Assembly (NCBI GenBank): GCA_002304445.1
Contig: NEVA01000005.1
Span: 124,001 to 188,000, forward strand
DNA from: Opitutia bacterium Tous-C4FEB
GTDB lineage: Bacteria; Verrucomicrobiota; Verrucomicrobiia; Opitutales; Opitutaceae
Direction of reading: 5' to 3'
DNA: 64,000 nt
The notes under the pieces were generated by a model. It worked only from the letters and a program-made list of their open reading frames with translations, ran no database searches and had not been told where the DNA came from. Position 1 is the stretch's first letter. Every line of letters begins with the position of its first letter. Below are positions 26,362-55,344 of this stretch, one piece after another. A program made the translations under genes and the position numbers.

Positions 26362-27879
26362 CTAATGTTTGGAATACTCGAAGCGGTCTATGACTTTTCC
26401 GGTGTCGTAGAGCAGAGTTTTCGGATAATACGCCTCATCAAACGGTCGTGGACGCGTCGGTCCTCCCCACGTTGAGCCTGGACGGCTTCCCCAACGCCGG
26501 CGTGCCCAATGCGGACCACGGAGCGGATCTCTCGTTCGGTTCATCCATGCGAGCAATTCGTCGAGCAACCGTTCCCGTTCAGGTGTGAGCGCCGGATCGT
26601 TTACCCGGTTCTGGAGTTCGAGGGGATCGGCCGCCAAATCGTAGAATTCATCGGTATCGAGCAAGTTGATGACCAATTTGTATCGTCCATCAAAGACACT
26701 ACGTATCGGCGCGAACGCACCAAAGCCGTCGTGGTCGATTTCAAACCGATTGAATTCCATGAAGACGAAATGATTTGTGCGGTGGGCCGGATTACGCATC
26801 TGGGGCAGTAAAGAACGTCCTTGAAGAATGGACGGAACCGTCATCCCGAAGTAGTCGAGTAGCGTTGGCACCAGATCGATGTGGGATACCGGTTCTTGCG
26901 ATACTGCGCCCGCAGGCGACGCGCCGGGCCATCGGACGATGAACGGGATGCGGACAATTTCTTCATACATGCACGGGCCTTTGCCATAGAGACCGTGGCT
27001 GCCAAACATGTCACCATGGTCACTGGTATGGATGACGAGGGCCCCGGGTGTTTCGCCATCAATTGCCTCCATCACCCGGCCTACCTGGGAGTCGCAAAAA
27101 CTATTGCATGCAAAATGGTGGGGATGGCGCAAGTATGCCTTGTCTCCGATGCGAGCCAATTGGGTCCGATGGGACTCGGTATGCCGGGCCCACTCTTTTT
27201 GTGAGAGCGGTTTGTCCGAAAGCGGATCGTCCGCATTGGGCACGGGATAGAGGAACTCGTCGAATGCGCTGGCGTAGGGTTCCGGAGCAATGAACGGGTG
27301 GTGCGGTTCGTCGATCGAGACGACCAACAGGAAATCCCGATCCCGGTGAACGCGGATGAATTCCCTAGCCCGTTCGGCTATTCGCCACGCATGGGTGAAA
27401 TCGGCGGTAATCCCGTGTGCGGCCACCCCTTTGGCATCCAATACGCACCGAGAGAGAGCGCGCGCTTCGTCATTGGGCAATGAGTCCAGGTAATTTCGTC
27501 CGTCCATCCAATAACCCGGGTCCCAGCCGGGCGGACAGCGTCCGTCCCCAAAGTAGTCACTGCCGTCCAAATGCCACTTGCCGATGTAACCGGTCGCAAA
27601 TCCGGCGTCGCTTAGGCGCTGACCTAAGGTGGGCAGATCGAGGTGGGGCGCCATATCGTTACCGAGGACGCCGTTGCTGTGCGGATAAAGCCCCGTAAAC
27701 AGGGCCGAGCGCGAGGGCCCGCAGACCGGCGAGCACGTATAGGCACCGTTAAACCGCACTCCCTCGGACGCGAGTCGGTCGATGTTCGGAGTGCCCAGCG
27801 CCAACTCGGGGCGGTAGCAACCGACGCAATTGGCTCCCTGGGTATCGATGAGGAAGAGAACGGTCTGTCGTTTAGACAT
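26362..27879 (-). CDS. leaderless S1-type sulfatase
   Basis: A 505-residue type I sulfatase that hydrolyses sulfate esters after conversion of the active Cys to formylglycine. The maturation motif is CGPSR (Cys53-Arg57) within TCSPVCGPSRSALFTG. Metal ligands are suggested by LIDTQGANCVG near the N-terminus and TSDHGDMFG in the middle. No signal peptide is present (MSKRQTVLFLIDT starts directly in the first strand), so it should act in the cytoplasm. It ends the receptor-symporter-regulator unit, which suggests desulfation of an imported substrate. Confidence 0.9.
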   Translation of the reverse strand: MSKRQTVLFLIDTQGANCVGCYRPELALGTPNIDRLASEGVRFNGAYTCSPVCGPSRSALFTGLYPHSNGVLGNDMAPHLDLPTLGQRLSDAGFATGYIGKWHLDGSDYFGDGRCPPGWDPGYWMDGRNYLDSLPNDEARALSRCVLDAKGVAAHGITADFTHAWRIAERAREFIRVHRDRDFLLVVSIDEPHHPFIAPEPYASAFDEFLYPVPNADDPLSDKPLSQKEWARHTESHRTQLARIGDKAYLRHPHHFACNSFCDSQVGRVMEAIDGETPGALVIHTSDHGDMFGSHGLYGKGPCMYEEIVRIPFIVRWPGASPAGAVSQEPVSHIDLVPTLLDYFGMTVPSILQGRSLLPQMRNPAHRTNHFVFMEFNRFEIDHDGFGAFAPIRSVFDGRYKLVINLLDTDEFYDLAADPLELQNRVNDPALTPERERLLDELLAWMNRTRDPLRGPHWARRRWGSRPGSTWGGPTRPRPFDEAYYPKTLLYDTGKVIDRFEYSKH

Positions 27880-27981: not shown

Positions 27982-29058
27982 TCACTCATGGCGCGGGTCC
28001 GGTTTGACGACGGCGAGGGACGTTTTGCGGAACGACTGTCGATACATGGTCGGAGTCCGTTGCGTGATACGCTTGAACAGACGGCAGAAATAAAAGGGGT
28101 CCTCATAGCCGACCAGGTGAGCGATGCTTTCGACCTTCGTGTCGGTTTCGACGAGGTATTCACACGCCTTGGCAATCTTCTGTCGGTTGAAAAAGCTTCG
28201 CGGGCTTTGACCGGTGTGCTTGCGGAACTGTTGGGTGAAATAGGCGTGAGACATACCGGCGCTGGCCGCCAACTCGTGGATGCTCACGTGCGCGCGGAGG
28301 TTTTTGCGCATCATCGAGAGCGTGCGTTCGATCCGGGTCGCCGTTGATTCCTGCACGGCCGCGCGATGGCACACCTTTGCAAAGAGATCGCCGAGCAGTT
28401 GATGCATCGCCGAGGAGGCCTGCACGAGATCCTTGTAGGCCTGGCCTGCGCGGTAGATCCCAAGAATCTTTTCGAAGGTCTCGACGAAACGGAGATCGGA
28501 TTGAACAGCGATGCAGGTGTCTTTTCCGCCGGTGGTCAGAACATCGTAATACTGCTGGGCGCCCGTACCGTTGAAGTGAATCCAATAGTAGGACCAAGGG
28601 TCGCCCGGATCGGCAGCGTACGCGTGGAATTCAAACGGCCGCAGCAGCGCGATGGTGCCAGGGGTGATCCGGTGTTTGCTTTCGCGGAGATCGAGCGTAC
28701 CCGCTCCGTCGAGGCAGTAGAGCAGCGTGAACGCCCAATCCCCGTTTGCTCGGGAAACTTTCTGTCCCTTGGCCCGGGGGAAGTAGCCGAGACGGCAAGG
28801 CAGCAAGGCCGCCGTCAAGGGTTGCCGGTTGGCCGATTCCACGACTTTGGTGGGAAGCTTGAAAATCCGTTCACCCGGAAAGTCCTCACGACCGAGCACC
28901 GAGACGAGCTTGCGGCCATTGAAACTGAACACGCGGGTCTTGTCGTCCGCCATGTAGCCCTCCAGCGAGAAAGCCTTCGGATCCAACGGCGGCAACACGC
29001 GGTTGCGCGGTTTGGCCGGCGCGGCGCCAGGACGTTTGCCTTCGGTAGGCTTGCTCAT
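27982..29058 (-). CDS. AraC family transcriptional regulator
   Basis: A 358-residue regulator with an N-terminal cupin-like sensing domain (about residues 60-200, including RITPGTIALLRPFEFHAY) and a C-terminal tandem helix-turn-helix (VSIHELAASAGMSHAYFTQQFRKHTGQSP and VESIAHLVGYEDPFYFCRLFKRITQRTP). It starts at ATG 29058, 11 bp after the symporter stop. It lies inside the sulfated-glycan unit and is the obvious candidate to bind the shared 35-bp elements upstream of the receptors; that link is inferred. Confidence 0.92.
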   Translation of the reverse strand: MSKPTEGKRPGAAPAKPRNRVLPPLDPKAFSLEGYMADDKTRVFSFNGRKLVSVLGREDFPGERIFKLPTKVVESANRQPLTAALLPCRLGYFPRAKGQKVSRANGDWAFTLLYCLDGAGTLDLRESKHRITPGTIALLRPFEFHAYAADPGDPWSYYWIHFNGTGAQQYYDVLTTGGKDTCIAVQSDLRFVETFEKILGIYRAGQAYKDLVQASSAMHQLLGDLFAKVCHRAAVQESTATRIERTLSMMRKNLRAHVSIHELAASAGMSHAYFTQQFRKHTGQSPRSFFNRQKIAKACEYLVETDTKVESIAHLVGYEDPFYFCRLFKRITQRTPTMYRQSFRKTSLAVVKPDPRHE

Positions 29059-29069
29059 GGCCGTAGGTC

Positions 29070-30725
29070 TTAGCCGGAATGGGCGAGACGCCACAGGGAA
29101 AAATAGAGCACGACCGCGAGTATGGAAACCACCACCGAGGCCACACGCAGGCCGCGCCACGGCGTGAGATCCACGGCGACGTCGGCCGGCAGGCCGTCCC
29201 GCTTCGGGCTTGCGGAGGAGGGCGCAGCGGGGGCGAACCAACCGACGACCAACATGAATCCGCAGAGCAACACGGTGTTGAGGGCGGCGAGATGGAGCCA
29301 GTGAATATGCAACGCGGAAACGTTGAAGCGCCCCAGCCCGAGGAAACCATCGCCCCACAAGCAGTTCAGAAGAATCGACGTAAACACGCCGAGGATCATC
29401 GACACGTTGGCCGCCCAGGCAGGCACCCGTCGGCTGAACATACCGGTGACGACCACGGCGAGCAGGGGTAACTTAAAGGCGGACATGACCTGCTTCATCA
29501 TCGTGAAGATTCCCTCAGACGAGCTGCCCAGCAGGCTGGCGGTGAGGATGGACACGAACACGATCACGACGGAGAAGAGCTTGCCCGCTCGGACCATCTC
29601 GCGGTCCGAAGCTCCCGGCCGGAGCCAGCCCCGATAAAGATCCAAACTAAACATAGTCGAAACACTGTGCAGTCCGCCGTTGAATGAGCTGATCACGGAG
29701 CCGAGGAAAACCGCGGCGAACAAACCCACCAGATAGGGCGGCAGCACGGCATCAACCAGCAGCGAATAAGCGAGGTCGCCGTTGCCGATCGCTGCGGCGC
29801 CAAACATTTCCGCAGCGATGATGCCGGGGATCACGAGGAAGAACGGCCCAAGCAGCTTGAGACCGGCGGTGGCGAGAATTCCCTTTTGAGCCTCCGCGAA
29901 ACTTTTCGCACCGAAGGAGCGCTGCACGATCATCTGGTTGGTGCACCAGTAGAAGAGATTGATGAAAAGCATCCCCGTGAAGAGCGTGTCGAACGGCACG
30001 TTCGAACGAGGCCCACCGACGGGGTCGATCTTCGCGGCTTGGTGCTGCAGCACGCGGTTCATGCCGGCGAGGAAGTCACCGTCACCCAACTTGAAAAGCG
30101 CGAGCACCGGGATGAGCAGACCGCACACGAGCAGGCCGGCACCGTAGAGGGTGTCGGACAGTGCCACCGCCTTCATGCCGCCGAAGAGCACGTAGCAGGT
30201 GCCGATGATGCCGATGCTCCACGCCATCAGCCGGAAGGAAGCCTCCTCGGAAATACCCAGCTGCGTATGCACATGGAAGATCGTGCTCATCGCCAAGCCG
30301 CCCGAGTAGAGCACAAACGGCAGGATGTTCAGCGCGATCGTGATGATAAAAACGATGCCCATGATCCGGCGCGCCGTCGCATCGAAGCGCTGCTCGAGGA
30401 ACTGCGGCACCGTAGTGATGTTGCCGGACCAGTAACGCGGCAGGAAATACCACGCCATCGCGATCAACGCGAACACCGGCACGACTTCCCACGCCATCAC
30501 CACCGCGCCGTGGATGGATGCCGCACCGTTCAAACCAATGAGTTGCTCGGTGGAAAGGTTGGTCAGCAACAGAGCCATGGCCACTTGGATCCACGGCAAT
30601 TTCCGACCCGCGAGGAAGTAGGTTTGCGCGTCGCTGTTGTCCTCCCGGCGGGTCTGCCACCACGAAATCAATGCCACCACGACGGTGAAAAAAACGAATG
30701 AGCCGACGGCGAGCGGAAGATTCAT
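29070..30725 (-). CDS. sodium:solute symporter (SSS family)
   Basis: A 551-residue inner-membrane symporter with many hydrophobic segments, starting MNLPLAVGSFVFFTVVVALISWW. SGLT-like family features are GRKLPWIQVAMALLLTNLSTEQLIGLNGAA near the N-terminus and the R-x-T-G-like core FGAKSFAEAQKG. It likely imports a sugar or sugar acid released from the glycan handled by the neighbouring receptor and sulfatase. It follows the receptor by 67 bp. Confidence 0.92.
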   Translation of the reverse strand: MNLPLAVGSFVFFTVVVALISWWQTRREDNSDAQTYFLAGRKLPWIQVAMALLLTNLSTEQLIGLNGAASIHGAVVMAWEVVPVFALIAMAWYFLPRYWSGNITTVPQFLEQRFDATARRIMGIVFIITIALNILPFVLYSGGLAMSTIFHVHTQLGISEEASFRLMAWSIGIIGTCYVLFGGMKAVALSDTLYGAGLLVCGLLIPVLALFKLGDGDFLAGMNRVLQHQAAKIDPVGGPRSNVPFDTLFTGMLFINLFYWCTNQMIVQRSFGAKSFAEAQKGILATAGLKLLGPFFLVIPGIIAAEMFGAAAIGNGDLAYSLLVDAVLPPYLVGLFAAVFLGSVISSFNGGLHSVSTMFSLDLYRGWLRPGASDREMVRAGKLFSVVIVFVSILTASLLGSSSEGIFTMMKQVMSAFKLPLLAVVVTGMFSRRVPAWAANVSMILGVFTSILLNCLWGDGFLGLGRFNVSALHIHWLHLAALNTVLLCGFMLVVGWFAPAAPSSASPKRDGLPADVAVDLTPWRGLRVASVVVSILAVVLYFSLWRLAHSG

Positions 30726-30792: not shown

Positions 30793-33675
30793 TCAGAAAC
30801 TGAACTTGGTCGTGATAATCCACTCCAAGGGAGGATTGAACCGATAGGCCGTCAACACGCCGTCCCGAGCGGTGTTGATCCGGATGAAGGCGTCATTGTT
30901 GAGTGCATTGTTGATGTTCGTCTGCAGGGACCAAGCGACGGATTTACCCATGATCTGAAGCTTTCGCCGATAGGCGGCGTTGAGGTCGAGAAATACCTGC
31001 TCGGACCCATATGAAACCGTGCTCGTCACTCCTCCGCCAGGAGTTCCGGTGGCGCGGTAGCCATTAATTGGCCGGCCGGTGTATCGCACGCCGCCGCCCA
31101 CGGTGATGCCCTTTAAGGCTCCTCGGGAAAACTCATAATTTGATACGAGATTCAGCTTATGCTCCATCTGTCCAAGCGCCGGCCTCCCGTTGGCGAGCGT
31201 AAAGTCGGTGAACGTCCGGACATCGAGCGCCGCGAGCTGCGTGCCGATTGTGCCGACGCCGGTGCTTAGCGGCAGCGCCGCGTTGGCCTCCCAAGTCGGG
31301 CGCCAAAAGGCGATGTAAGCAAAATCCTCTTGCCCAATGTTGGTTTGGGCGGACTTCGATTGGCTATAGTTGAGGAATACCCGCCAATACGCCGTGGGGT
31401 TGGCCGTGATTTCCACCTCATAGCCTTGGGTGCGGTTATCGAAGGTTCTGCCGGTGCCGCTTTGAACGGTTCCGCTCGGAACTTTTCCGGCCAACGCGAG
31501 GGCGCTCCAAATGGGGTTGATCGACGATGCGATGTTGCCGAAATCAAAATCTCTTTCGGCGCTGGTTTGAAAATACTGCGCGGTGACAAACAGCCGGTTC
31601 TTCAACAAATCCAGTTTAAATCCGCTGTCTTGGCTCTTGCCTTTTGGGGTGGGCGGACGAGAGAACGCGGCCACATCTGAGTTGGGGACGTTCAGCCGTC
31701 CCCCAAAGCTCGGCAGGCCGCTGTTGCCGGCTTGGCTGTAGGTCAGACCTAACCAATCGGTGGCTTGTAGCACGCCGCTGAATGAAACACTGGTGGCGAC
31801 CGTATTTATAGGGGTCTGGCTGCGCACCGGGCCCGGTATGCCGGAAGCAAATCCAGCGACGGGCGTTAGCACCGACGTGGATGCGTAATCGTTGCGGTCA
31901 TCGCGGCTGGTGCCGATGATGGTCTTGATTCGATCTTTCCAGAACGAGCTTTGCAGCATCCCGATCATGCTCCGGCTATCGAAACTGTTAAGGATGCCGT
32001 TAACGTTGAAAGGCACCAAAGCGGTGGTGTACGTTCTGCCGCTGAGGGTTTCGGTAAACGTGCCCAAAGCCTGTCGGTTGTAGGGCGCCATCACGATGTT
32101 GCGGCTCGGGCCGGCGAGATCGACATAGGTGCGGCGAAATATCCGGTTGTTGTTGTTGATCGCGCTGGTCAGGTTCGGAGCGTTCGGCGAGATGATCTGC
32201 TCGCGGACAGCGATTTGAGACAATTTCGTAAAATCATATATGTAGACGCCAGCCAACGTGTGTTTACCCCACCGGCCGAAGTCTCTCGCGTAGGAAAGCA
32301 CCGCCCGCACTGAGTCGCTGCGGGTGTCACTGAATCCGATCTGAGGCAGTCCCTCGATGTAGGTTTTGCCGACATTGGGGTTAACGGCGCCGGACGGCAG
32401 GGTCGGGTTGGTGTCGACGATGATGGCCCGGGTGTTGGCGGTCTGCGGGTCCGAGTTCTCCGTATGGCTATCGGTGCGCATCCCCGCGATTTCCAGATTG
32501 AGGTTGGCGGTAAACGAGTGGGTCAAATAGGCCCCGAGACGGGCGTATTTCGTATCAAGACCAAAACCCGGCCCATAAACCGACGTCTCCTTGGGCAACA
32601 CGTTGAAATCAGACATGGGAACATTTTCGCCATCAATCGCCGTCCAAAGGGTGCTCCTGGTTTTGTTGACCCAATTGGTCACGGCGCTCGAGGCGGTGTC
32701 CAAAACCATGTAGGGCGTGTTGTTGGCTGCGACCCTCGAGATTTGCAGAGCGGCATTGGCCGCGCCGACGTTGCGTCCGGCAGCCGCCCAGCGGGTGTAG
32801 GCATCGTAGGCCGTGCTGGAACGGATGGTGCGCTTATTGAGGTCCGCCTTCTCCAGATCGAAATTGAACTCGGTTTTCCGCCCCATGCGCCATTTACCGG
32901 TGAGATAGGCACGTTCCGAGTCGCTAAACTCATAGTTGCGCCAACTGCCGCGTTGTTCCTTCACGGCGGCGACCCGGATGGATAGATCATCACCGATCGC
33001 CTGATTGTAGTCGGCGTCCTGACGGAGACCGCCCTCCGAGCGGCCCTGCACGGTGCCCGAGAAAGCGTTCTTGCCCAGCATCGCCCGCTTGTTCGTCACA
33101 TTGATGAGACCTCCGGGTGAGCCGATACCGAACAGGATCGAATTCGGGCCGCGCGCTTGGTCGATGCGCTCCGTGCTGAACGTGTCGGCCGGGAAATCGG
33201 ATTTGAAAAAATTAACGGCGACGGTGCCGCCAGGGAGCCCGCGCATCCGCAATGATCGCGTGCTCGAACTCGCAAGAAAGTTCTGCCCCGGCCCGGCATT
33301 CTCACCGAAGTCATACTCGGTGCTGAGCATGTAACGCGCGAGGTCGTCAGTGTTCGTGATGCCGACGTCGTTAAGAAATTCTGCGGTGAAGGCCGTGGTG
33401 GGCGCGGCGACGTCCTTAAGATTGGTCCTCAGGCGACTGCCACCCAAGGTCGACTGCGCTTGATAGCCACGATCCAACGTCGACGTGACGGAGAACGGAG
33501 TGAGTTCAACCACTTCCGAAGCGGTGGTATTCTTCGGATCATCCGTCGGCGAGGCCGGAGAGGAGGAATTCGCGACCGCTTGGGCGCAAGCGACGGAGGC
33601 CAACCCGGATAGACAAAGCAGAATCGTCAACGGGAACCGACACGAGATGACAGGTATCGGAGAATAAGTCAGCAT
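30793..33675 (-). CDS. TonB-dependent receptor (glycan uptake)
   Basis: An outer-membrane receptor of about 960 residues. From ATG 33675 a signal peptide (LTILLCLSGLASVACAQA) leads to a TonB box VVELTPFSVT, a plug domain (LGGSRLRTNLKDVAAPTTAF ... RMRGLPGGTVAVNFF, RIDQARGPNSILFGIGSPGG) and a large barrel ending in WIITTKFSF with terminal Phe. It starts the unit containing symporter, AraC regulator and sulfatase. The frame is open to 33765, but that would put 30 extra residues before the signal peptide. The 35-bp element lies 68 bp upstream. Confidence 0.93.
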   Translation of the reverse strand: MLTYSPIPVISCRFPLTILLCLSGLASVACAQAVANSSSPASPTDDPKNTTASEVVELTPFSVTSTLDRGYQAQSTLGGSRLRTNLKDVAAPTTAFTAEFLNDVGITNTDDLARYMLSTEYDFGENAGPGQNFLASSSTRSLRMRGLPGGTVAVNFFKSDFPADTFSTERIDQARGPNSILFGIGSPGGLINVTNKRAMLGKNAFSGTVQGRSEGGLRQDADYNQAIGDDLSIRVAAVKEQRGSWRNYEFSDSERAYLTGKWRMGRKTEFNFDLEKADLNKRTIRSSTAYDAYTRWAAAGRNVGAANAALQISRVAANNTPYMVLDTASSAVTNWVNKTRSTLWTAIDGENVPMSDFNVLPKETSVYGPGFGLDTKYARLGAYLTHSFTANLNLEIAGMRTDSHTENSDPQTANTRAIIVDTNPTLPSGAVNPNVGKTYIEGLPQIGFSDTRSDSVRAVLSYARDFGRWGKHTLAGVYIYDFTKLSQIAVREQIISPNAPNLTSAINNNNRIFRRTYVDLAGPSRNIVMAPYNRQALGTFTETLSGRTYTTALVPFNVNGILNSFDSRSMIGMLQSSFWKDRIKTIIGTSRDDRNDYASTSVLTPVAGFASGIPGPVRSQTPINTVATSVSFSGVLQATDWLGLTYSQAGNSGLPSFGGRLNVPNSDVAAFSRPPTPKGKSQDSGFKLDLLKNRLFVTAQYFQTSAERDFDFGNIASSINPIWSALALAGKVPSGTVQSGTGRTFDNRTQGYEVEITANPTAYWRVFLNYSQSKSAQTNIGQEDFAYIAFWRPTWEANAALPLSTGVGTIGTQLAALDVRTFTDFTLANGRPALGQMEHKLNLVSNYEFSRGALKGITVGGGVRYTGRPINGYRATGTPGGGVTSTVSYGSEQVFLDLNAAYRRKLQIMGKSVAWSLQTNINNALNNDAFIRINTARDGVLTAYRFNPPLEWIITTKFSF

Positions 33676-33742
33676 GGTAGCAAGGGGGTTGACGAAACAG
33701 GGGAACGAAGACCGAGGTAAGATACCAATCCCCAACGCATCG

Positions 33743-33777
33743 GACATAGACGAATTTGGCATCAATCTAGACTTTTT
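33743..33777 (-). promoter_or_regulatory. copy 1 of shared 35-bp element upstream of TonB receptor
   Basis: On the minus strand this reads AAAAAGTCTAG, then 14 bp, then CGTCTATG. It matches the copy at 39602-39636 in 31 of 35 positions. The two GTCTA half-sites are 21 bp apart, two helical turns, in direct orientation, as for many AraC-family tandem sites. Confidence 0.7.
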
Positions 33778-34343
33778 GAATTATGCACGGACTTGGCCGT
33801 GTTGCTTGGTGCTTGGCTAGCCATTAAGATCGACCTCTGGCCCCTTCGCCCAAGTCGCGTAGACAAAAAGTCCAGCGAGCCATGCGGAACGTCTATGGGC
33901 TCGCAGGGCAGGAACACTTAACCTCAGCCCCTGAGATTATGGCAACCGCTGCCGTGCAGTTCGCGCTCCTTCATTTCTTTCACCGTCCACCGCTACCGGG
34001 TTTTCCCCCTCCAAAGAACCCGAGCCGCTCACCCTACCATGCCCCTCTCCTCCCCTACCTCACCGAGCTGCTTCTGGCGCCGATCGCCCCACTGGGTGCG
34101 GATTCGTCGTCGCCGCCCAGCGTCCTCCCGCCGGCAGCATCCATCCCCAGCGATCCAATCGTGGAACTGCTCCTTTCATGGTTAACGCTGGCGGGCAAAA
34201 ACGGTCTCGCCAACCTGGGAACGAGGAAGGTTCGCAATATCAGCACAACCGCGGCGTCGGGGAATTTCTTCCCGGTTGCACCGCCGATGTGAAATCTTGA
34301 TCGCACGCCCCGCGACAGCGCCAGGTGCGGCCACCCTTCTACA
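33766..34343. other. divergent intergenic region with regulatory element and possible gene debris
   Basis: This 578-bp gap separates the receptor unit from the secreted glycosidase-like gene. It contains a plus-strand copy of the 35-bp element (33865-33899). A plus-strand frame over 34060-34110 reads LLLAPIAPLGAD, resembling the signal peptide ends of the decayed sulfatases at 35990 and 42890, so it may hold another decayed gene start. I see no convincing intact gene. Confidence 0.45.
33865..33899 (+). promoter_or_regulatory. copy 3 of the shared 35-bp element (plus strand)
   Basis: It reads AAAAAGTCCAG, a 14-bp unconserved spacer, then CGTCTATG, with exactly the same 25-bp offset between block starts as the two receptor copies. 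The spacer does not match the others, so only the two blocks are conserved, as expected for protein contacts rather than recent duplication. It faces the glycosidase-like gene at 34344. Confidence 0.6.
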
Positions 34344-35993
34344 ATGAAAACAATAATGTATGTGTGTCTGTTCGCCGCGATGGCTACCGGGGGTGCGGCG
34401 GAAGGGAAACCGGGCTACGGAATATCCAGCTGGGCGGGGTGGAAGCCGGGGCAGATTTCGCCGGCGGAATGCCCGGAGCTGCGCAGTGTTCCGCTCATTC
34501 TGAAATGGGATTCGCTGGAACCAGCCTCGGGGCGCTACGCGTTCGCCGAAGAACTCGGGCGACCGTTGCAAGCGGCGCAGGAAGGCGGGCTCTATATAAC
34601 CCTGATGATCTGGGTTGGCCCCGCGGCACCTGAATGGATCTATCAAAGCGGAGTTCCGCGGGTGATCACGAACCGGAACGTCAATGCGCTGGGTCAGAAA
34701 ACCGATGGGCAGAAAGAATATCCCTACTATCTGCATCCGGAGTATAAAAAGCGTTTCATGGGGCTGATTGATGCCTTCGGCAAATATGTCTCCGCCCTGC
34801 CGCCAGCACTGCGCGCGCGCATTGTGTTTGTGCAGTGCGCCGAGGGATCCACCGGCGACGGCCAGCCCTATAAGGGCAAACCGCTCGATCAAAAATATGC
34901 CATCTCCGACGAAGTGTGGAATGACTTCCGACTGGAAGCATGGAAGCGCTACCGGGACGCCGTGCCCGGAATTCCGATCCTGGTGAACTCCGACGCCAAC
35001 GGCGGTTTGGAAACCCAATGGCTGCTGGAGAACATGGACGTCATCGCGCTGAAGCAGGGCATGTTCAGTCACGGCTTCCAGGTCAGCGACAACGGCGAGC
35101 GGCTGGCCAAGTTCCAGGCGTTGGAAGCCGCGGCGAAACAACGCGGTAAGCCGGTGCTCACCCGCGGCGAGATGGACGGCGAGTTGTTTGAAATGGGTTG
35201 GTCGAAACGCAACATTCCGCAGGCCCTCTACTGGTCGGGGATCTTCGCGACCCATTGCCGGTTGGATATCTGGAACGTGCCCTATCAAGCATTGAAGGAC
35301 AGGGCGAATTGGCCGGCTGGCGCCTTCTTCAACAAATATGCCGGGCACAAGGATCCGGCGACCGCCCCGGCCGCCTTTTGTGCGCTGCGTGACGGGCTCG
35401 ACGCCTCCGACTTTAACCGCTTCCCGGCCTCAGAATTCGGCGGAAAGCCGGGACAGAAAAAGGAAGTGGATCGTTACCTCCGCATCACCAAAGCCTACGC
35501 CAGCTACGGCGCGCTTATGGCCGATCCTGAAAAGGCAATTGGCGGCGGCATGATCAACCGCAAGAGCAGCGGACCCAACGATGTGGGCTGGGATATTTTG
35601 TCGGGCAACTACTCCCGCTTCCTGACGCAGATCGAACCGGGCTCCGGCGATGTGGGCCGGTGGAACATCGATGAGTCCATTTATGGGCGCTTTGGCCGCG
35701 CCTTTGAGCATCAATCCGGCAAAAAGCAGCTGCGCTTCCAACTCGACCCGCGCTTTGCGGCCAAGCAGGTGAAGGTGAGCGTCACCTATCTCGACCAAGG
35801 GACGGGATCCTGGTCGATCGGAATCCCGGGAAAAGAGGGCGCCACGCGTATTCAGAACACCAATAGCCGCGATTGGCGCACCCAGGTGGTCTCATTATCC
35901 GGAATGACGGAACTGGTCCTAAACTATGAAACCGGCGACAATACCCTTTTCCATCTGATTGAGGTGGAGCGCGCGGCGTCGCACGCAAAATGA
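34344..35993 (+). CDS. secreted glycoside-hydrolase-like protein (TIM-barrel), unknown specificity
   Basis: A 549-residue protein with a signal peptide (MKTIMYVCLFAAMATGGAAE). The opening PLILKWDSLEPASGRYAFAE is the substrate-side pattern of clan GH-A barrels such as beta-galactosidases. Candidate acids are Glu167 in VQCAEGSTGD and Glu276/Glu280 in TRGEMDGE. The C-terminal ~110 residues look like a beta-sandwich. No named GH family is assigned. It overlaps the following sulfatase start by 4 bp (ATGA). Codon choice leans to G-ending codons more than the housekeeping genes here, hinting at a foreign origin. Confidence 0.7.
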   Translation: MKTIMYVCLFAAMATGGAAEGKPGYGISSWAGWKPGQISPAECPELRSVPLILKWDSLEPASGRYAFAEELGRPLQAAQEGGLYITLMIWVGPAAPEWIYQSGVPRVITNRNVNALGQKTDGQKEYPYYLHPEYKKRFMGLIDAFGKYVSALPPALRARIVFVQCAEGSTGDGQPYKGKPLDQKYAISDEVWNDFRLEAWKRYRDAVPGIPILVNSDANGGLETQWLLENMDVIALKQGMFSHGFQVSDNGERLAKFQALEAAAKQRGKPVLTRGEMDGELFEMGWSKRNIPQALYWSGIFATHCRLDIWNVPYQALKDRANWPAGAFFNKYAGHKDPATAPAAFCALRDGLDASDFNRFPASEFGGKPGQKKEVDRYLRITKAYASYGALMADPEKAIGGGMINRKSSGPNDVGWDILSGNYSRFLTQIEPGSGDVGRWNIDESIYGRFGRAFEHQSGKKQLRFQLDPRFAAKQVKVSVTYLDQGTGSWSIGIPGKEGATRIQNTNSRDWRTQVVSLSGMTELVLNYETGDNTLFHLIEVERAASHAK

Positions 35994-36446
35994 AATACCC
36001 TCTTCTCGTCCTCGCCGTTGTGCTGCTGGCTCCACTGGCTCGGCTCGGTGCCGACGAGTCGAAGCCCCACGTCCGGCTCATCCGCCCGGACGATCATAGC
36101 TATCCGCACGTCGGCTGCTGCAGGAACAAAGACATTATGACGCCGAACCTCGACCCGCTCGCCGCCGAGGGCATGCGCTTCGATCGCGCCGATATGATGA
36201 GCCCGCATTGCGTGCCGTCGCGCGCGCAGCTTCACCGGGGTGGCCGGACGAATGGATCACATGGAGGACGCAAATATGAACGTGGCGGAATCGCAGACCG
36301 TGTTTAACAAGCATAAACTCATAACGTTTCCCGACCACCTCGACTACATGAAGACCGGCAACGGCAGTGGTCTCTTCCCGTCGCGGCGTCGGCCCTGCCG
36401 ACGGCCCGGCCCAACCGCTCAACGCATTCCTTTCACCCGACTATGA
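35990..36446 (+). pseudogene. decayed sulfatase with frameshift and deletions
   Basis: The first frame (35990-36240) encodes a signal peptide, a degenerate first strand (IRPDDHSYPHVGC), the metal/nucleotide-side TPNLDPLAAEGMRFDRA and an intact maturation motif CVPSR. Then the frame breaks. A second frame from about 36240 encodes AGRMDHMEDANMNVAESQ and VFNKHKLITFPDHLDYMKTG, which is the segment normally found some 35 residues later in S1 sulfatases. The C-terminal two thirds are absent. The next sulfatase starts at 36443. Confidence 0.82.
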
Positions 36447-37969
36447 AAAAATTCCTGCCCCTTTTTGGCTCCGCTGTTTTTCTCTCATCGGCGCTGACCC
36501 TGTCCGTCGCCGCGGCGGAAACGTCGCCGCCTTCGCCAACCGCTCCCAGCAAGAGCTACAACGTTATCTTTATCGCGGTGGACGATTTGAACGACTGGAT
36601 TGGCGCTTTCGGTGGCCACCCACAGGCAATCACGCCGAACATGGATCGGCTAGCCAACGAGCGGGCGATGGTAATGAACAAAGCGTATGCCGCCTCCACT
36701 GTTTGCTGCCCGAGCCGCTCGGCGCTGCTCACTGGCAAGCGGCCTTCCTCGACCGGGGTTTACGGCAATACCCACAATCTAAAAAGAGCGCCCAAAGCCA
36801 AAGACCTCGTGACCTTGCCGGAATATTTCGGGAAACACGGATATCATACGCTCTCGACGGGGAAGATTTTCCACAAGCACGCCACCCCAAACGGTCTGGA
36901 TGAAGGCCAGTGGGCGTTTCATGAGATCGGCACACCTGAAAGCCGCGGAGGCACGGGAGGAATACTGTGGCAGAAACAACCCGTCGCGACCGAGAGCGGC
37001 GAAAAAGGTGACGAGTTCCGTTGGGGGGCGATCAAGGGCCCGGTGGAAAACACCAAGGACTACGTGGCCAGCAAATGGGCCGCAGAGCAGCTCCAACGTG
37101 ACTTTGACGGCAAACCGTTTTTCCTGGCCTTGGGTCTCTCCAAACCGCATCTGCCTTGGGAGGTTCCGCAGCAGTTTTTCGACCTGTATCCCCTCGATAA
37201 ATTGAAGCCGGTCGAGATCGTGCGCGACGACCTCGATGACATCGTCGGCAAAAACGGTAAGCCGATCTTTGGTCCGGATTCACGTTTTCTCGCGGCGGAC
37301 CGCGCCAACCTGCATCTCGAAGCCCAGCAGGCCTACCTGGCTAACGTGAGCTATGTCGATTATTGTCTCGGCGTGCTGTTCGATGCTTTGGCGAAAAGCA
37401 AATATGCCGACAACACGATCATCATGCTCTGGGGCGACCACGGCTGGCACCTCGGAGAAAAGCTGAAATATGGAAAGACCGACCTTTGGGAAGAATCCAA
37501 CCGCGTCCCCCTCATCGTCCGCGTGCCCGGCCTGACGCCAAACGGTTTCAAGTGCGAGGGCGTGGTCAATCTTTTGGATATGTATCCTACGCTGATCGAA
37601 CTATGCGGCTTGCCGGCCAATCCGGAAAATGAAGGGCGCAGTTTCGCCCCGCTGCTCAAGAATCCGACGATGGTGTGGAACCATCCGACGCTCACCACCT
37701 ATAATTTTAGCAACCATTCTCTCACCGACGGGCGCTATCGTTACACTTGGTATGGCGGCAAGGCTGTCGGAGCCGAGGAACTCTACGATCATGCCACCGA
37801 TCCTCTTGAGCGAAAGAACCTGGCCGCGAATCCCGCCTCGCAAGAAATCATCGCCCGCTTCAAACCGCATTTGCCCGCTCACAATGAGCCCGCTGCCCCC
37901 AAGAATAACCCGGGCGTTGGTGACAAACGAGCCCAACGCAAGGGCGGTAAAGCCAAACAGAAATCCTAG
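36443..37969 (+). CDS. secreted iduronate-2-sulfatase-like sulfatase
   Basis: A 508-residue S1 sulfatase with a signal peptide (MKKFLPLFGSAVFLSSALTLSVAAAE). NVIFIAVDDLNDW is the iduronate-2-sulfatase-type metal-binding start. The formylglycine motif is CCPSR (Cys88-Arg92). The mid-protein metal segment is IIMLWGDHGWHLGEKLKYGK. It probably acts in the periplasm on a sulfated polysaccharide or oligosaccharide; the exact sulfate position cannot be read. It ends in a Lys-rich tail after KNNPGVGDK. Confidence 0.93.
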   Translation: MKKFLPLFGSAVFLSSALTLSVAAAETSPPSPTAPSKSYNVIFIAVDDLNDWIGAFGGHPQAITPNMDRLANERAMVMNKAYAASTVCCPSRSALLTGKRPSSTGVYGNTHNLKRAPKAKDLVTLPEYFGKHGYHTLSTGKIFHKHATPNGLDEGQWAFHEIGTPESRGGTGGILWQKQPVATESGEKGDEFRWGAIKGPVENTKDYVASKWAAEQLQRDFDGKPFFLALGLSKPHLPWEVPQQFFDLYPLDKLKPVEIVRDDLDDIVGKNGKPIFGPDSRFLAADRANLHLEAQQAYLANVSYVDYCLGVLFDALAKSKYADNTIIMLWGDHGWHLGEKLKYGKTDLWEESNRVPLIVRVPGLTPNGFKCEGVVNLLDMYPTLIELCGLPANPENEGRSFAPLLKNPTMVWNHPTLTTYNFSNHSLTDGRYRYTWYGGKAVGAEELYDHATDPLERKNLAANPASQEIIARFKPHLPAHNEPAAPKNNPGVGDKRAQRKGGKAKQKS

Positions 37970-38150
37970 ACATTTCCCGCATCACAACCGGACGTTTTTT
38001 GATCACATAAAATCCACCCTAACACCCTTGTCCCGCCCCGGCACGGCTGCACGAATCGCTCCGGCGGTCGGAGTCTTGAAGAAATACACCGACCGCGGTG
38101 GCATTGGCATCCCCGCCGGCAACTTGAAATTGGCCCACTAGCATCGCCCC
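37970..38150. other. short gap with possible sulfatase C-terminal remnant
   Basis: A plus-strand frame closing at 38141 reads ARIAPAVGVLKKYTDRGG near its end, reminiscent of the C-terminal helix of arylsulfatases (LLEKYV..G). It has no start of its own and the resemblance is short, so it may be debris or chance. The inverted repeat GCGGTCGG ... CCGACCGC also lies here. Confidence 0.3.
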
Positions 38151-39569
38151 ATGAAAAAACATCACCTCCTCCCTCTCTTGATCCTTTTGGCGCTCGCACC
38201 GCGGAGCGCGCTGCCGGGCGCCGTCCCGTCCGCCCCGCCGCTCAAGCCCAACATCATCTACATCCTGCTTGATGACGCCGGCATCGGGGATTTCTCGGCT
38301 TACGGCTGCAAGTATGGCGTGACGCCCAACATTGATCGCTTGGCCACGGAAGGCATGAAGTTCACCCGGGCCTACAGCGGCAGCGCGGTCTGTGCTCCAT
38401 CACGAATGGTGCTGATGACGGGCCAACATACCGGTCATATTCTGCGTCGCGCCAACCAAAGCAAAGTCGGCCTGCTCGCACTCCCCGCCGGCCAGACCAC
38501 GGTCGCTCGTATGCTGCAGAACGCCGGTTACGCCACCGGTGGCTTCGGCAAATGGGGCTTGGGCAATCCTGAAACCACCGGAGTAGCGGAGAAACAAGGC
38601 TTCGATGTGTTCTTCGGTTACTACGACCAAAAACACGCTCATAACCACTACACCGACTATCTGATTCGTAACAGTGTCAAAGTGCCCATCCAACAATCGG
38701 GCAAACACACGTGGGCGGACTATGCTCCCACCCGCATCGCCGACGAGACTCTCAGTTTTATCGAGCAAAACAAAGACCGGCCCTTTTTCTGTTATGCCGC
38801 ATGGACTCCGCCACACGGGGACTACGTCATCCCGGAGAATCCGGTTTTCGCCGGGAAGCCGTGGCCGGAGGAGATCAAGAGCTACGCTGCGATGGTTGCC
38901 CTCGCTGACCGGGATGTCGGCCGCGTGATGCAAAAACTGAAGGACCTCGGCATCGATGACCGGACGTTGGTAATTTTCAGCTCCGACAACGGCGCCAACC
39001 CGGAGTTTATCGAGCCACTCGGCAGCACGGGAGGACTGCGCGGGCACAAGCGGATGCTTTACGAAGGCGGCACGCGTGCCCCGCTTATCGTGCGTTGGCC
39101 CGGCAAGATTCAGCCGGGCACGACCAGCGACCTACTCACCGCGTTCGTTGATTTTTTGCCGACGGCCGCAGAACTTAGCGGGCTCCCGGCACCGAAAGGT
39201 ATCGATGGTCATTCGATCGTGCCGACCTTGCTCGGGAAGGGTCAACCAACGCGGCACGAATCGCTCTATTTTGAAATCTACGAGCCCTACTTCCAACAAG
39301 CCGTGCGCATGGGGGATTGGAAGGGATACCGGCTCGGCACCAAAGCCCCGCTCGAGCTTTACGACCTAAAGGCCGATCCCGCCGAAAAGCAGAATATCGC
39401 CGCCGCCCACCCGGACATCGTTCGAAAGATCGAAGCGATCATGAAAGCGGAACACTCCCCGTCGCCGTATTACGACGCACCCGAGCAAGGCAGCCCAAGA
39501 CCGACTAAAGGAAAGAACGAGCAAAGCGCGAAGCCCGCCGCCTCAAGCAAAGAGACCCCAAGTCTTTGA
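38151..39569 (+). CDS. secreted arylsulfatase
   Basis: A 472-residue S1 sulfatase with a signal peptide (HLLPLLILLALAPRSALPGA). PNIIYILLDDAGIGDFSAYG carries the paired Asp ligands, and the maturation motif is CAPSR (Cys81-Arg85). The segment VIFSSDNGANPEF supplies the later Asp-Asn metal ligands typical of arylsulfatase A / GALNS types. It is the third sulfatase-derived frame in a row on this strand. Confidence 0.94.
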   Translation: MKKHHLLPLLILLALAPRSALPGAVPSAPPLKPNIIYILLDDAGIGDFSAYGCKYGVTPNIDRLATEGMKFTRAYSGSAVCAPSRMVLMTGQHTGHILRRANQSKVGLLALPAGQTTVARMLQNAGYATGGFGKWGLGNPETTGVAEKQGFDVFFGYYDQKHAHNHYTDYLIRNSVKVPIQQSGKHTWADYAPTRIADETLSFIEQNKDRPFFCYAAWTPPHGDYVIPENPVFAGKPWPEEIKSYAAMVALADRDVGRVMQKLKDLGIDDRTLVIFSSDNGANPEFIEPLGSTGGLRGHKRMLYEGGTRAPLIVRWPGKIQPGTTSDLLTAFVDFLPTAAELSGLPAPKGIDGHSIVPTLLGKGQPTRHESLYFEIYEPYFQQAVRMGDWKGYRLGTKAPLELYDLKADPAEKQNIAAAHPDIVRKIEAIMKAEHSPSPYYDAPEQGSPRPTKGKNEQSAKPAASSKETPSL

Positions 39570-39601
39570 CGGACCGCAAGAATTCGGTCCAAGCGGGACT
39601 A

Positions 39602-39636
39602 AAAAAGCCCAGATTGAGGCTAAATTCGTCTATGTC
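39602..39636 (+). promoter_or_regulatory. copy 2 of the shared 35-bp element upstream of a TonB receptor
   Basis: It reads AAAAAGCCCAG, then 14 bp, then CGTCTATG. It lies in the 253-bp gap between the arylsulfatase and the receptor gene, about 190-230 bp before the receptor start. It matches the minus-strand copy at 33743-33777 in 31 of 35 positions, including most of the spacer. Confidence 0.7.
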
Positions 39637-39822
39637 GAATTCGCGGGTATTGCGTAGGATTTAGCTTAGCTCGATTTCCACGTTCTGTTAAACCCCAAGC
39701 CCCAACGGCGACCTCGCACGGATCTGTTAGCACCCTCTGCTTCTGATCGCGAGTCTAGCCCCATCTCATCGCACACGACTAGTTCCACCACTTCGGCGTT
39801 TTAGACCTCGGCCGCATCCGGT

Positions 39823-42804
39823 GTGACTGACTTTCTCATCCAACCAGACAACCCATCCCCTAACGTGAATCATTACTCCGCCCGCTCCCTGCGCTGCCTT
39901 CGACCGCTCTTTTGCTACCTCTCTCTCTTCTGCGTTCTCTCCCTTTCAGCCGCGCATGCCGCCACTCTCACCGGCAACGTCTCTAACGTCGCTACCCGCA
40001 ATCTCCTTGAGGGCGCACGGGTCGAAGTCCCCGCCCTCGGTCTCACGGCTCTGACCGATAATACGGGCCGCTACGTGCTCGCTGCTATCCCCGCGGGCGC
40101 GCACGAAGTCGTCGTGACCTACGTCGGCCTCGATTCGGTCCGCACCACCGTCATCGTCGCCGACTCGGCCAGCACCACGCGCGACTTTGATCTGACCAGC
40201 GTCGTCTACAAACTCGATGCCTTTAAAGTCACCGGCGAGCGCGAGGGCGGTGCCGCCGCCATCACCGCGCAGCGCAATGCCGAGAACGTGAAGAATATCG
40301 TCGCGATGGATTCGTTCGGAAACTTGCCGAACATGAATGCCGCCGAGGTTGCCATCCGCCTGCCCGGCGTCGCCGGCAATCTCTCGGACGAAAACCTTGT
40401 CGACGGTTTCACGATCCGTGGCATCCGTCCGGGCCTCAACACCGTTACTCTCGACGGCTCACCGCTCACCAGCCAAGGCGCCCTCAACCGCGCCACGAAC
40501 ATGAACAACCTCACGGGCGCCATGTTCGACCAAATGGAACTCACCAAGGGCCACACACCCGACAAAGAGGCCGGCTCCATCGGTGGCACCATCAATCTCA
40601 AGAGCCGTTCCCCTCTCTCCATGAGCGAGCGCCGACGTCTCACCTACAGCGCCGGTGTGCGCTACGCCCCGCCGTTCACCGAGCAAACTCCGACGCGCGA
40701 AAAACATCGTGCGCATCCGCTCTTCAACATCGGCTGGCAGGAACTCTTCGACGTCAACGGTGGCGAGCGCAACCTGGGCGTTTCGCTCAATGTGTTTTAC
40801 TCCGAAAACGCCGTCGGCGGTTTCCGCACCACGCGCGATTTCGAAAATACCACCGCCCAGCCCGCCTACCTCTGGGACTACCGCACGTGGGACAACTACA
40901 ACAACCGCAAGCAGGCCAGCGTCAGCCTTAAAGCGGACTACCGTCTCTCGCCTTCCACCAAGCTCTCGATCAACACCGTCGCGAGCGACGCCATCGAGAC
41001 GTTTCGCCGCCAATACGAGACGCGGGCCTTCACCACGCAACAGGTCGGCACCACCGGCACGGCCGGCATTCTGCCCGGCTACACCGATCAAATCACGCAG
41101 GTCCGCGCCGCCGCCGGCTCGACCATCGACCAGACGTCCACCGGCCCGGGTAATTTCCACAACCGTATGCGCCGCCTCGACCTCGGCGCCGAACACGTTT
41201 TCGGCGCCCTCCAGGTCGATTACAACGCCATCTACACCCAGTCCAATATCAACGGCGGCGGCGGCGGGCGCGGCGGGATCTTGGTGAACCGCATTACCGC
41301 GGTCGGCTGGCGTCTTGATCGCACGGACTCCGATCTCCACCCGCGCTTCACGCAAACCGAAGGCCCCGATTTCACCAATCCCGCCAACTACCGCCCAACC
41401 ACCTACAACAACTCGATCCTCCAAAACGACGATCAGATCAAAGAGGTCCGCGCCAACCTCCGCTATACGCTGCCGGTTTCCTTCCCTCTCTCGCTCAAGT
41501 CCGGCGCGGTCTGGCGTGAGCACTACGCGAATGCCGAGAGCGTCGCGCGCCGTTGGAACTACGCCGGCACCACCGCCCTCCCCGCCGATCCCTCGATCAT
41601 CACCTTCGATTCCGTGAAAACCGGCCGCCGCATTCCGCAGTGGGAGCCGGTCCAGTTTTTCGCCGATCGCCAGCCGGTCACTCCCGCGCTCTGGCGCGAG
41701 GACCTCTACTTTTTCGAGCAAAACAAATACACCGCTAACCGCGCCGTCACCGAAACCGTCACGGCCGGCTACGCGATGGCATCGGGCCGATTTGGCCGCA
41801 CCGGCCTCGTCGCCGGCGTGCGCACCGAGCGCACCGAAACATCGAGCTGGGGCTGGGTGCGCACGCGCACCGGCAGCACCGTGGCCCAGCAGACCGCCGA
41901 TCCCGTCGGCTCCGCCACCCGCGACTATGCCGGCACCCGGCGCGATCTCAGCGGGAGCTACACGAAATCGTTTCCCAGCGCCCATCTCACGCACGATCTC
42001 ACCTCCAACCTCAAGGCCCGGCTGAGTTGGTCCACCAGCTTCGGTCGTCCACCATTGAACAACGCGCTCCCCAACGAAACCATCTCCGAGGCGAACCAAA
42101 CCCTCACGGTCAACAACCCGAGCCTGCTCCCGCAGACCGCCGCCACATGGGACGCCACGCTCGAGTATTACTTCGAACCCGTCGGCACACTTTCTGTCGG
42201 CTGGTTCAATAAGACCATCGAAGACTACATCGTCACCGGCACCAATGCGGGCACGATCGGTACCGGCTCCGACAACGGCTACAACGGCGAATACCCCGGC
42301 TTCACGCGTCTCACCTCGTCTAACGCCGGCACGGCCAAGGTCCAGGGCTGGGAGTTCAACTATCAGCAGCAGTTCACGTTTCTCCCCGGCCTGTTCAAGG
42401 GCTTCGGGGCCTCGGCCAACTACACGCTGGTCAGCACCAGCGGAGATTTTGGCGGCACGACCTCACGCAGCACCAACGAGGTCCCCGGTTTCATTCCGCG
42501 CACCGGCAACGCCACGCTCTCTTGGCGCTACCGCAAATTTAGCACGCGCGTTCTCTACAATTTTACCGGCAGCTACATCACCGCCTTCACCGCCGCGACA
42601 CCCGGCCGCAATCTCTACCGTTTCGACTACGCTTCCGTGAACGCCGGCATGGCGTATCAGATTCGTCCCGACGTCCAGCTCACACTCGACGCCGCCAACC
42701 TAACCAACGAGCCCCAGGCTTTCTACCGCAGCGTCCGTTCCCAGATGCAGAACACCATTCTCAACGGCACAACGCTCACGTTCGGTGTCAACGGACGCTT
42801 CTAA
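39823..42804 (+). CDS. TonB-dependent receptor with carboxypeptidase-regulatory-like domain
   Basis: A 993-residue outer-membrane receptor. A signal peptide (CYLSLFCVLSLSAAHA) is followed by a CarboxypepD_reg-like beta-sandwich (LTGNVSNVATRNLLEGARVEV ... LDSVRTTVIVAD), a degenerate TonB box (YKLDAFKVTG), a plug (IVAMDSFGNLPNMNAAEVAIRLPGVAG and ELTKGHTPDKEAGSIGG) and a barrel ending LTFGVNGRF. The plug type, with NAEN..K.IVAMDSFG, is the TonB/oligosaccharide receptor group often linked to glycan loci. GTG 39823 and GTG 39865 are both possible starts; the second gives a shorter n-region. Confidence 0.92.
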   Translation: MTDFLIQPDNPSPNVNHYSARSLRCLRPLFCYLSLFCVLSLSAAHAATLTGNVSNVATRNLLEGARVEVPALGLTALTDNTGRYVLAAIPAGAHEVVVTYVGLDSVRTTVIVADSASTTRDFDLTSVVYKLDAFKVTGEREGGAAAITAQRNAENVKNIVAMDSFGNLPNMNAAEVAIRLPGVAGNLSDENLVDGFTIRGIRPGLNTVTLDGSPLTSQGALNRATNMNNLTGAMFDQMELTKGHTPDKEAGSIGGTINLKSRSPLSMSERRRLTYSAGVRYAPPFTEQTPTREKHRAHPLFNIGWQELFDVNGGERNLGVSLNVFYSENAVGGFRTTRDFENTTAQPAYLWDYRTWDNYNNRKQASVSLKADYRLSPSTKLSINTVASDAIETFRRQYETRAFTTQQVGTTGTAGILPGYTDQITQVRAAAGSTIDQTSTGPGNFHNRMRRLDLGAEHVFGALQVDYNAIYTQSNINGGGGGRGGILVNRITAVGWRLDRTDSDLHPRFTQTEGPDFTNPANYRPTTYNNSILQNDDQIKEVRANLRYTLPVSFPLSLKSGAVWREHYANAESVARRWNYAGTTALPADPSIITFDSVKTGRRIPQWEPVQFFADRQPVTPALWREDLYFFEQNKYTANRAVTETVTAGYAMASGRFGRTGLVAGVRTERTETSSWGWVRTRTGSTVAQQTADPVGSATRDYAGTRRDLSGSYTKSFPSAHLTHDLTSNLKARLSWSTSFGRPPLNNALPNETISEANQTLTVNNPSLLPQTAATWDATLEYYFEPVGTLSVGWFNKTIEDYIVTGTNAGTIGTGSDNGYNGEYPGFTRLTSSNAGTAKVQGWEFNYQQQFTFLPGLFKGFGASANYTLVSTSGDFGGTTSRSTNEVPGFIPRTGNATLSWRYRKFSTRVLYNFTGSYITAFTAATPGRNLYRFDYASVNAGMAYQIRPDVQLTLDAANLTNEPQAFYRSVRSQMQNTILNGTTLTFGVNGRF

Positions 42805-42889
42805 CGGCACTCATGAAATCTCGAAGAGACTCCATTCGCGCCGCACTCTTTTCGCGCTCGGCAGCACTGCTGCCAGAGGCCCCGGTGTA

Positions 42890-43392
42890 ACAACGACACT
42901 GCTCCTATTCGCCGCCCTGTTGCTGGCTCCGCTCGCCGCCGCCGAGCCGAAACCGATCGTCCTGCTCATCCTCTCCGACGACCATAGCTACCGCACGTCG
43001 GCTGCAACGGAAACAAGGACATCATGCCCACCGTGCTCGCAGTCAGCGGGGCGCAATATCCGGGTGCCTCGAAGCAGGCCATGATTCCTCCGCTGGACGG
43101 TGTGAGCCTGTTGCCCGCCTTCAAAGGCGAGCCGATTGCACGAGCGAAACCGTTGTTTTTTCAATTCGGCCGAGGCTCCGCGGTGCGCAATGGACCGTGG
43201 AAGCTCGTGCGCATGGGAGCGACCTGGGAGCTGTATGACTTAGCGTCTGATCGCAACGAGTTGAGCGACCTCGCGGCGAAGCGGCCCGAACTGGTCAAAC
43301 AATTGGACGCCGCGTGGCTGGCCTGGTGGAAGGAATCCACGGGCAGCGAGTGGACGGGCAAGAACACTAAAGATCGCAAACTTGAGCAGTGA
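42890..43392 (+). pseudogene. internally deleted sulfatase remnant
   Basis: The 5' part encodes a signal peptide (LLLFAALLLAPLAAAEPKP) and the first strand IVLLILSDDHSY. After a frame change near 42990 it continues HVGCNGNKDIMP, then jumps directly to a sulfatase C-terminus: PPLDGVSLLPAFKGEPI, KPLFFQFGRGSAVRNGPWKL and WELYDLASDRNELSDLAAK. The middle ~350 residues, including the formylglycine motif, are gone. The 3' part is an open frame from 43024. It cannot encode an active enzyme. Confidence 0.85.
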
Positions 43393-43724
43393 GAGCGGAG
43401 TCGATTGCGGAAGTCGCCCTACTATGGGGAGAGATTGGCGCCCAACATTTAATCTGCGGCACTGCGCCGGAATCATTCGAGCGGCGGCGATGGGCTTACA
43501 TGAAAGCGGCGGTTGGGCGTAAAGGTGCCCGTGGCCGAAATGGCACAAATCCATCCTGCAATCTCCCGCTAGCCAAATCCAGCGACGCCAAAATTGCCGT
43601 TGTTGCAGCACTCACCCGAGGGAAATTTTCCACGCAATTCCCCTTTATAGACACTTATTCGCGCCACGTTCGTTCTTATTAAAATTATGTCTGCTCCGCC
43701 ATTTTCCGAGCAGACCGCCTTTCC
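43393..43724. other. gap between sulfatase remnant and AraC gene
   Basis: No recognised gene is present. A 97-codon open frame on the plus strand (43389-43682) shows no motif I can name. The right end holds a hairpin suited to terminate the AraC gene. An AT-richer stretch lies at 43620-43690. Confidence 0.4.
43689..43715 (-). terminator. hairpin downstream of AraC regulator
   Basis: GTCTGCTC and GAGCAGAC form a perfect 8-bp stem with an 11-nt loop, 9 bp after the AraC stop. On the minus strand it is followed by ATAATTTTAAT, a weak U-rich tail, so it is a plausible but not ideal intrinsic terminator. Confidence 0.55.
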
Positions 43725-54986: not shown

Positions 54987-55344
54987 ACCGCGCGGTGGCA
55001 ACGGGCAGAACCCTTGAATCGACCGAGTTTCTGCTCTCTCTCCCTCGTCGCTTGCTTTCGGCTCTCTGCCAAAGACCGAATTATTCCGAATTCGCGCCTA
55101 TTCGCGTAATTCGCGGGCCAACTTCCGTTCCGATATCTTCGTGAAGCCCGTATTCCTAGCCGCTGCCTCCCCATTCTCCATCCCGGCTTCTACATTGCCA
55201 TTCGCGGCCATAGCCCGCCCTTCAAAATAATCGTGGTCCCGATGGCGGGTTCGGGCCACTCTCTTGTCGTGAAGGCTACCGGTGAACTCATCTTCCGCCC
55301 AAACGCTCCCTCGGATCGCGCTCCCGCCCAAGCCCGTCGCCGCC
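54987..55344. other. gap between toxin gene and sigma factor gene
   Basis: No gene is recognised. At 55085-55112 there is an AT-rich repetitive tract (TTCGCGCCTATTCGCGTAAT followed by TCGCGGG). The rest shows no clear hairpin terminator or gene motif. A promoter for the sigma factor operon should lie near the right end, but I cannot pick one with confidence. Confidence 0.4.

Follow-up and report, generated by a model that had tools for sequence, protein, structure and literature searches.

What controls the genes for sulfated-glycan use in Opitutaceae, and does a two-block DNA element that recurs among them take part? The window analyzed here is a stretch of 64,000 nucleotides from contig NEVA01000005.1 of Opitutia bacterium Tous-C4FEB, and in it the element occurs three times, close to genes for TonB-dependent receptors, sulfatases and a secreted glycosidase-like protein. 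We consider it very probable that the copies are operators of activator-dependent promoters run by the AraC-family protein encoded at 27982-29058, which would co-induce the receptors, the sulfatases and the glycosidase-like gene in this lake-dwelling bacterium. The copies are listed here with their scores on R1, the element profile, which has four genomes of genus g49 and genome G075 outside its training set:

33743..33777, minus strand: copy 1 (type A), AAAAAGTCTAG-N14-CGTCTATG, 42.2 bits
33865..33899, plus strand: copy 2 (type B), 45 bits
39602..39636, plus strand: copy 3 (type A), 39.9 bits

Coordinates, strands, the blocks AAAAAGYCYAG and CGTCTATG, and the 25-bp offset were all exact in the original prediction, as was the direct 21-bp repeat of GTCYA half-sites, which the alignment of the copies reproduces. 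The pairing required correction: the 31/35 identity attributed to copies 1 and 2 belongs to copies 1 and 3, and it is copy 2, matching either of the others at 19/35, that shares only the blocks. Copies 1 and 2 stand back to back, 120 bp apart from start to start. Three copies are far beyond chance. With up to three mismatches, AAAAAGYCYAG-N14-CGTCTATG matches the window three times, against 0.01 matches expected from shuffled sequence, and with up to two mismatches these copies are the sole matches in the whole 3.76 Mb genome. Three additional genome matches appear at exactly three mismatches, comparable to the two matches of a reversed control pattern.

The element is not confined to this genome. 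Among 252 Opitutaceae genomes compared, it is present in 18 others, mostly as two back-to-back sites around 120 bp apart, and some 57 copies define the consensus AAAAAGTCCAG-N12-wYGTCYATG, a GTCYA direct repeat at 21 bp. Two site classes recur: type A, with spacer ATTGATGCCAAATT, faces a TonB operon, and type B, with spacer CGAGCCATGCGGAA, faces a sulfatase gene or a relative of gene 34344. The operon behind type A sites has the conserved order TonB receptor, symporter, AraC regulator, sulfatase. More generally, the first genes behind the sites mostly encode TonB receptors, sulfatases, 34344-like proteins, proteins resembling melibiases or glycoside hydrolase (GH) family 31, or, at loci that lack the receptor, the symporter; a few sites have no long gene within reach. 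The matches from the proposed scan of this genome and its relatives cluster before genes for TonB receptors, sulfatases and glycosidase-like proteins. In the window, too, the predicted assignment of targets is borne out, with copies 1 and 3 before TonB receptors and copy 2 facing the glycosidase-like gene. The genes concerned are:

30793..33675, minus strand: TonB-dependent receptor with plug domain, leading the operon of copy 1; the start is likely the ATG at 33675
29070..30725, minus strand: sodium:solute symporter (SSF), NCBIfam equivalog match above cut-off
27982..29058, minus strand: AraC-family regulator (AraC_binding + HTH_18), 358 aa, the proposed activator
26362..27879, minus strand: sulfatase (Sulfatase + SGSH_C), which closes the conserved operon
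34344..35993, plus strand: secreted and glycosidase-like, probably a distant TIM barrel of clan GH-A (GH42/GH35-like), predicted target of copy 2
36443..37969, plus strand: sulfatase, downstream of the 34344 gene and in the same direction
38151..39569, plus strand: sulfatase, ending just before copy 3
39823..42804, plus strand: TonB-dependent receptor (CarboxypepD_reg, barrel), copy 3 target, start GTG at 39823 or 39865

The minus-strand run behind copy 1 therefore reads TonB receptor, SSF symporter, AraC regulator and sulfatase, the same order as in the relatives.

For the anatomy of the sites, 44 of them from 14 genomes were compared, drawn from 19 fetched loci and the window. The column profile shows block AAAAAGTCCAG at columns 1 to 11 and wYGTCYATG at columns 25 to 33, followed by a region of low conservation broken by the isolated positions T55, A56 and T60. 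The GTCYA repeat is fixed at 21 bp in all 44 aligned sites, so that two direct half-sites lie about two helical turns apart. Of 41 non-redundant sites, 39 have a TANNNT motif that begins at columns 54 to 56, 20 to 21 nt past the second block; for other downstream three-column windows the mean is 0.7. The same holds for 13 held-out sites outside the profile, nine of which carry the motif (0.5 for the comparison windows). In the window, the conserved TANNNT columns give the following predicted -10 elements:

33719..33724, minus strand: TATCTT, copy 1 promoter, 20-nt spacer
33919..33924, plus strand: TAACCT, copy 2 promoter
39655..39660, plus strand: TAGGAT, copy 3 promoter, 20-nt spacer

The promoters have no recognizable -35 element; their -10 is conserved. 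A 21-bp direct repeat that ends about 21 nt before the -10, without a good -35, is the geometry of class II AraC-type promoters, and the direct repeat, the proximal half-site adjoining the -35 region and the fixed -10 together make these promoters good candidates for that class. The element is thus a predicted activator site abutting the -35 region of a sigma-70-type promoter.

Which regulator would bind there? The source genome has 17 genes with an AraC-type helix-turn-helix (HTH), two of them in the window. The product of 27982-29058 combines a C-terminal double HTH (PF12833, HTH_18, 1.6e-20; PF00165, HTH_AraC, 5e-19) with an N-terminal cupin-like ligand-binding domain (PF02311, AraC_binding, 1.5e-16). 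It is a member of the AraC family and not the arabinose regulator, scoring 93 bits against the NCBIfam AraC equivalog, which has a cut-off of 208. Its named relatives come from metagenome bins of Opitutaceae, Opitutae or Verrucomicrobia, several of them apparently of lake origin to judge by isolate names such as Baikal.

The gene for this protein and the element share a distribution. Orthologues occur in 18 of the 252 genomes, and all 18 carry the element, in every case but G226 near the AraC gene. R1 finds strong matches in 14 of them; counting strong matches only, the element occurs in one of the 234 genomes that lack the regulator (G074; Fisher p ~1e-18). The other four AraC-positive genomes are those of genus g49, whose AraC proteins are 62-64% identical. 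Their best R1 matches are weaker and lie within about 5-8 kb of the AraC gene; here too they form a back-to-back pair, in front of the same TonB-SSF-AraC-sulfatase operon. In G226, the contig is broken: a fragment of AraC lies on one contig and the sites on another, where they precede the symporter of the same operon. Moreover, the HTH residues MSHA and DPFYFCRLFK are nearly invariant in orthologues down to 62% identity, the latter with one exception, Ala for Pro at one locus. Co-occurrence, target genes and promoter architecture thus support the original prediction of one regulon perhaps run by this AraC protein, a reading that the comparative evidence supports well.

We infer the binding, the sense of control (activation rather than repression), the inducer and the autoregulation as follows. 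A dimer of the AraC protein would sense a breakdown product of the glycan and bind the direct half-sites AAAAAGTCCAG and wYGTCYATG, 21 bp apart. At the proximal half-site, which abuts the -35 region, it would recruit RNA polymerase with the housekeeping sigma factor, which would read the TANNNT hexamer 20-21 nt downstream. Copy 1 would drive the operon of TonB receptor, sodium symporter, AraC regulator and sulfatase; because the AraC gene lies in this operon, the regulator is probably autoregulated, in a positive feedback loop. Copy 2 would drive the glycosidase-like gene, which diverges from this operon, and probably also the sulfatases that follow that gene; copy 3 would drive the second TonB receptor. 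It is possible, though we put it forward tentatively, that each half-site is read mainly by one HTH (through GTCYA) plus an A-tract, without an A-box, and that separate receptor genes are recruited by the gain of a single 33-bp site. For such recruitment we cite the receptor at 39823, whose orthologues carry a site in four of the nine AraC-carrying genomes where upstream sequence is available, but in no AraC-less genome out of 20. Among the orthologues of this receptor (loci L164-L166 and L168-L185) are close ones, up to 89% identical, without an upstream element, so its membership in the regulon would be lineage-specific.

Several observations count against this scheme. No conserved A-box-like element stands upstream of either half-site; in E. 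coli, AraC sites have an A-box. Copy 2 is separated by 446 bp from 34344, its assumed target. G074 has sites and no detected AraC gene; this assembly, split into 540 contigs, has a completeness of 80%, and the contig with the sites stops inside the TonB gene. The four site-bearing orthologues of 39823 all belong to the genus of the window, the match in G233 being weak and partial. Finally, the AraC gene and the main site pair are physically linked, so their co-occurrence is partly the co-inheritance of one locus, and unlinked sites are the better evidence. Sites on contigs other than that of the AraC gene occur in G231, G232, G233, G081 and G100, all AraC-positive, G074 being the sole exception.

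The sense of control is the point at which a different reading fares best. The regulator could repress, or both repress and activate through a loop between the back-to-back sites, instead of acting as a plain activator; we judge this unlikely. The two sites do keep a mostly constant distance (start to start, 111-129 bp in most loci), and E. coli AraC loops DNA when arabinose is absent (PMC4760080), which we count in favor of a loop. However, the distance differs between loci by single bases and extends to 162 bp in two of them and to about 200 bp in another genus, so that no helical phasing is kept. Nor does the sequence between the sites show conservation or a third element. Repression is also at odds with a conserved -10 lacking a recognizable -35, as in activator-dependent promoters.

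Alternatively, the sites could be genuine operators of another regulator, either the second AraC protein of the window (43725-44693, minus strand) or one encoded elsewhere. The second AraC gene is well placed, inside the same block and between two TonB receptors, but it occurs in 35 of the 252 genomes, many of which lack the element, and G225, G226, G060, G079 and G094 carry the element but not this gene. The first AraC gene, in contrast, tracks the element and sits in the operon that it would control. The second AraC was dropped as the regulator because its distribution differs from that of the element, and we regard this whole alternative as improbable.

CGTC-type blocks suit the -10 elements of extracytoplasmic function (ECF) sigma factors, and for this reason an ECF promoter was considered first. 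Its -35 would be AAAAAGTC and its -10 CGTCTATG, and a FecI-type sigma would recognize them, for instance that of 55282-55932, beside FecR and a TonB receptor. The two blocks 25 bp apart, the second of CGTC type, and the ECF-FecR-TonB set inside the window agree with this, and TonB receptors are classic FecI targets. The blocks, though, form a 21-bp direct repeat, and the additional TANNNT conserved at a fixed distance past the second block is unexpected for an ECF promoter. Moreover, homologues of the local ECF sigma (55282, the sole ECF compared) occur in 86 of the 252 genomes and are missing from element-bearing G226, G231 and G233, and no element precedes the FecI-FecR-TonB genes of the window. 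The downstream TANNNT conservation and the distribution of the sigma factor led us to drop this reading, which appears slightly less probable still than a different AraC-type operator. The likeness to FecI control thus extends to the TonB receptor targets and the FecI-FecR-TonB set in the window, but not to promoter architecture or gene distribution. That the copies belong to a family of dispersed repeats or mobile elements and regulate nothing is hardly credible despite the 31/35 identity of copies 1 and 3, and was rejected on the genome scan and copy number: the genome holds only three copies, all in promoter position, and across genera the spacers differ while both blocks and the -10 stay fixed.

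How does the preferred activator reading compare with known systems? At E. coli araI1-araI2, half-sites at 21-bp spacing overlap the -35 and give class II activation of araBAD. The window resembles this system in its AraC-family protein, its direct half-sites at a 21-bp period with the proximal one adjoining the -35, its sugar-utilization genes and its divergent promoter region. It differs in the half-site, GTCYA(T)G plus an A-tract, with no conserved A-box, in a regulator that is only distantly similar and encoded inside the operon it would activate, and in that no araO2-like loop is shown here. AraC at araI1/araI2 recruits RNA polymerase (PMC4760080). At the level of gene content, TonB-dependent carbohydrate utilization (CUT) loci with regulators have been described in freshwater Verrucomicrobia (PMC5615132). 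The cluster in the window, with its TonB receptor, inner-membrane transporter, degradative enzymes and regulator, fits such a locus, and sulfatase-rich freshwater genomes are a further likeness; that account makes no mention of AraC regulators, promoters or operator sites (PMC5615132). Indeed, in the open literature we found no description of these operators or of AraC operators in Opitutaceae. The type of switch is familiar; the predicted regulon was found from sequence alone.

What emerges for the use of sulfated glycans by freshwater Opitutaceae is a specific regulator-operator pair open to test, together with its predicted promoters and start points, and a motif and profile usable for finding co-regulated glycan genes in other genomes. 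The motif and profile also suggest that this group makes use of promoters that depend on an activator and have a sigma-70-like TANNNT -10 element. If receptor genes are indeed recruited by the gain of single sites, the growth of a glycan regulon would become readable in an uncultured group without genetics.

The predicted target of copy 2 deserves separate description. At standard cut-offs, the 34344 protein has no direct sequence match in Pfam, NCBIfam or PDB. Its paralogues have weak GH42 matches, and its mediocre structure model (predicted local distance difference test, pLDDT, 60) resembles GH35/GH42/GH5 barrels in Foldseek; the paralogue matches and this low-confidence model make the label glycosidase-like a fair one. 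Proteins of this type, which probably form a divergent clan GH-A glycosidase family, have multiplied, with paralogues in loci L040, L042, L044-L046, L048, L049, L054, L056 and L141. Between copy 2 and 34344, a search for traces of a lost sulfatase found none, the sole match being the start of a 34344 homologue. Divergent melibiase/GH31-like genes lie behind further sites, at L046:4750-6828, L058:3584-5479, L136:10125-12089 and L141:4292-6187, and such targets hint at the sugars of the glycan. On the plus strand, 42815-43393 holds what is left of a broken sulfatase: one frame keeps a secreted N-terminal piece (...EPKPIVLLILSDDHSY), a different frame a C-terminal piece (...GPWKLVRMGATWELYDL...), and the catalytic part between the two is gone. 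Farther along the same strand, genes for the FecI-type ECF sigma, FecR and a TonB receptor follow in a row at 55282-60283, without the element.

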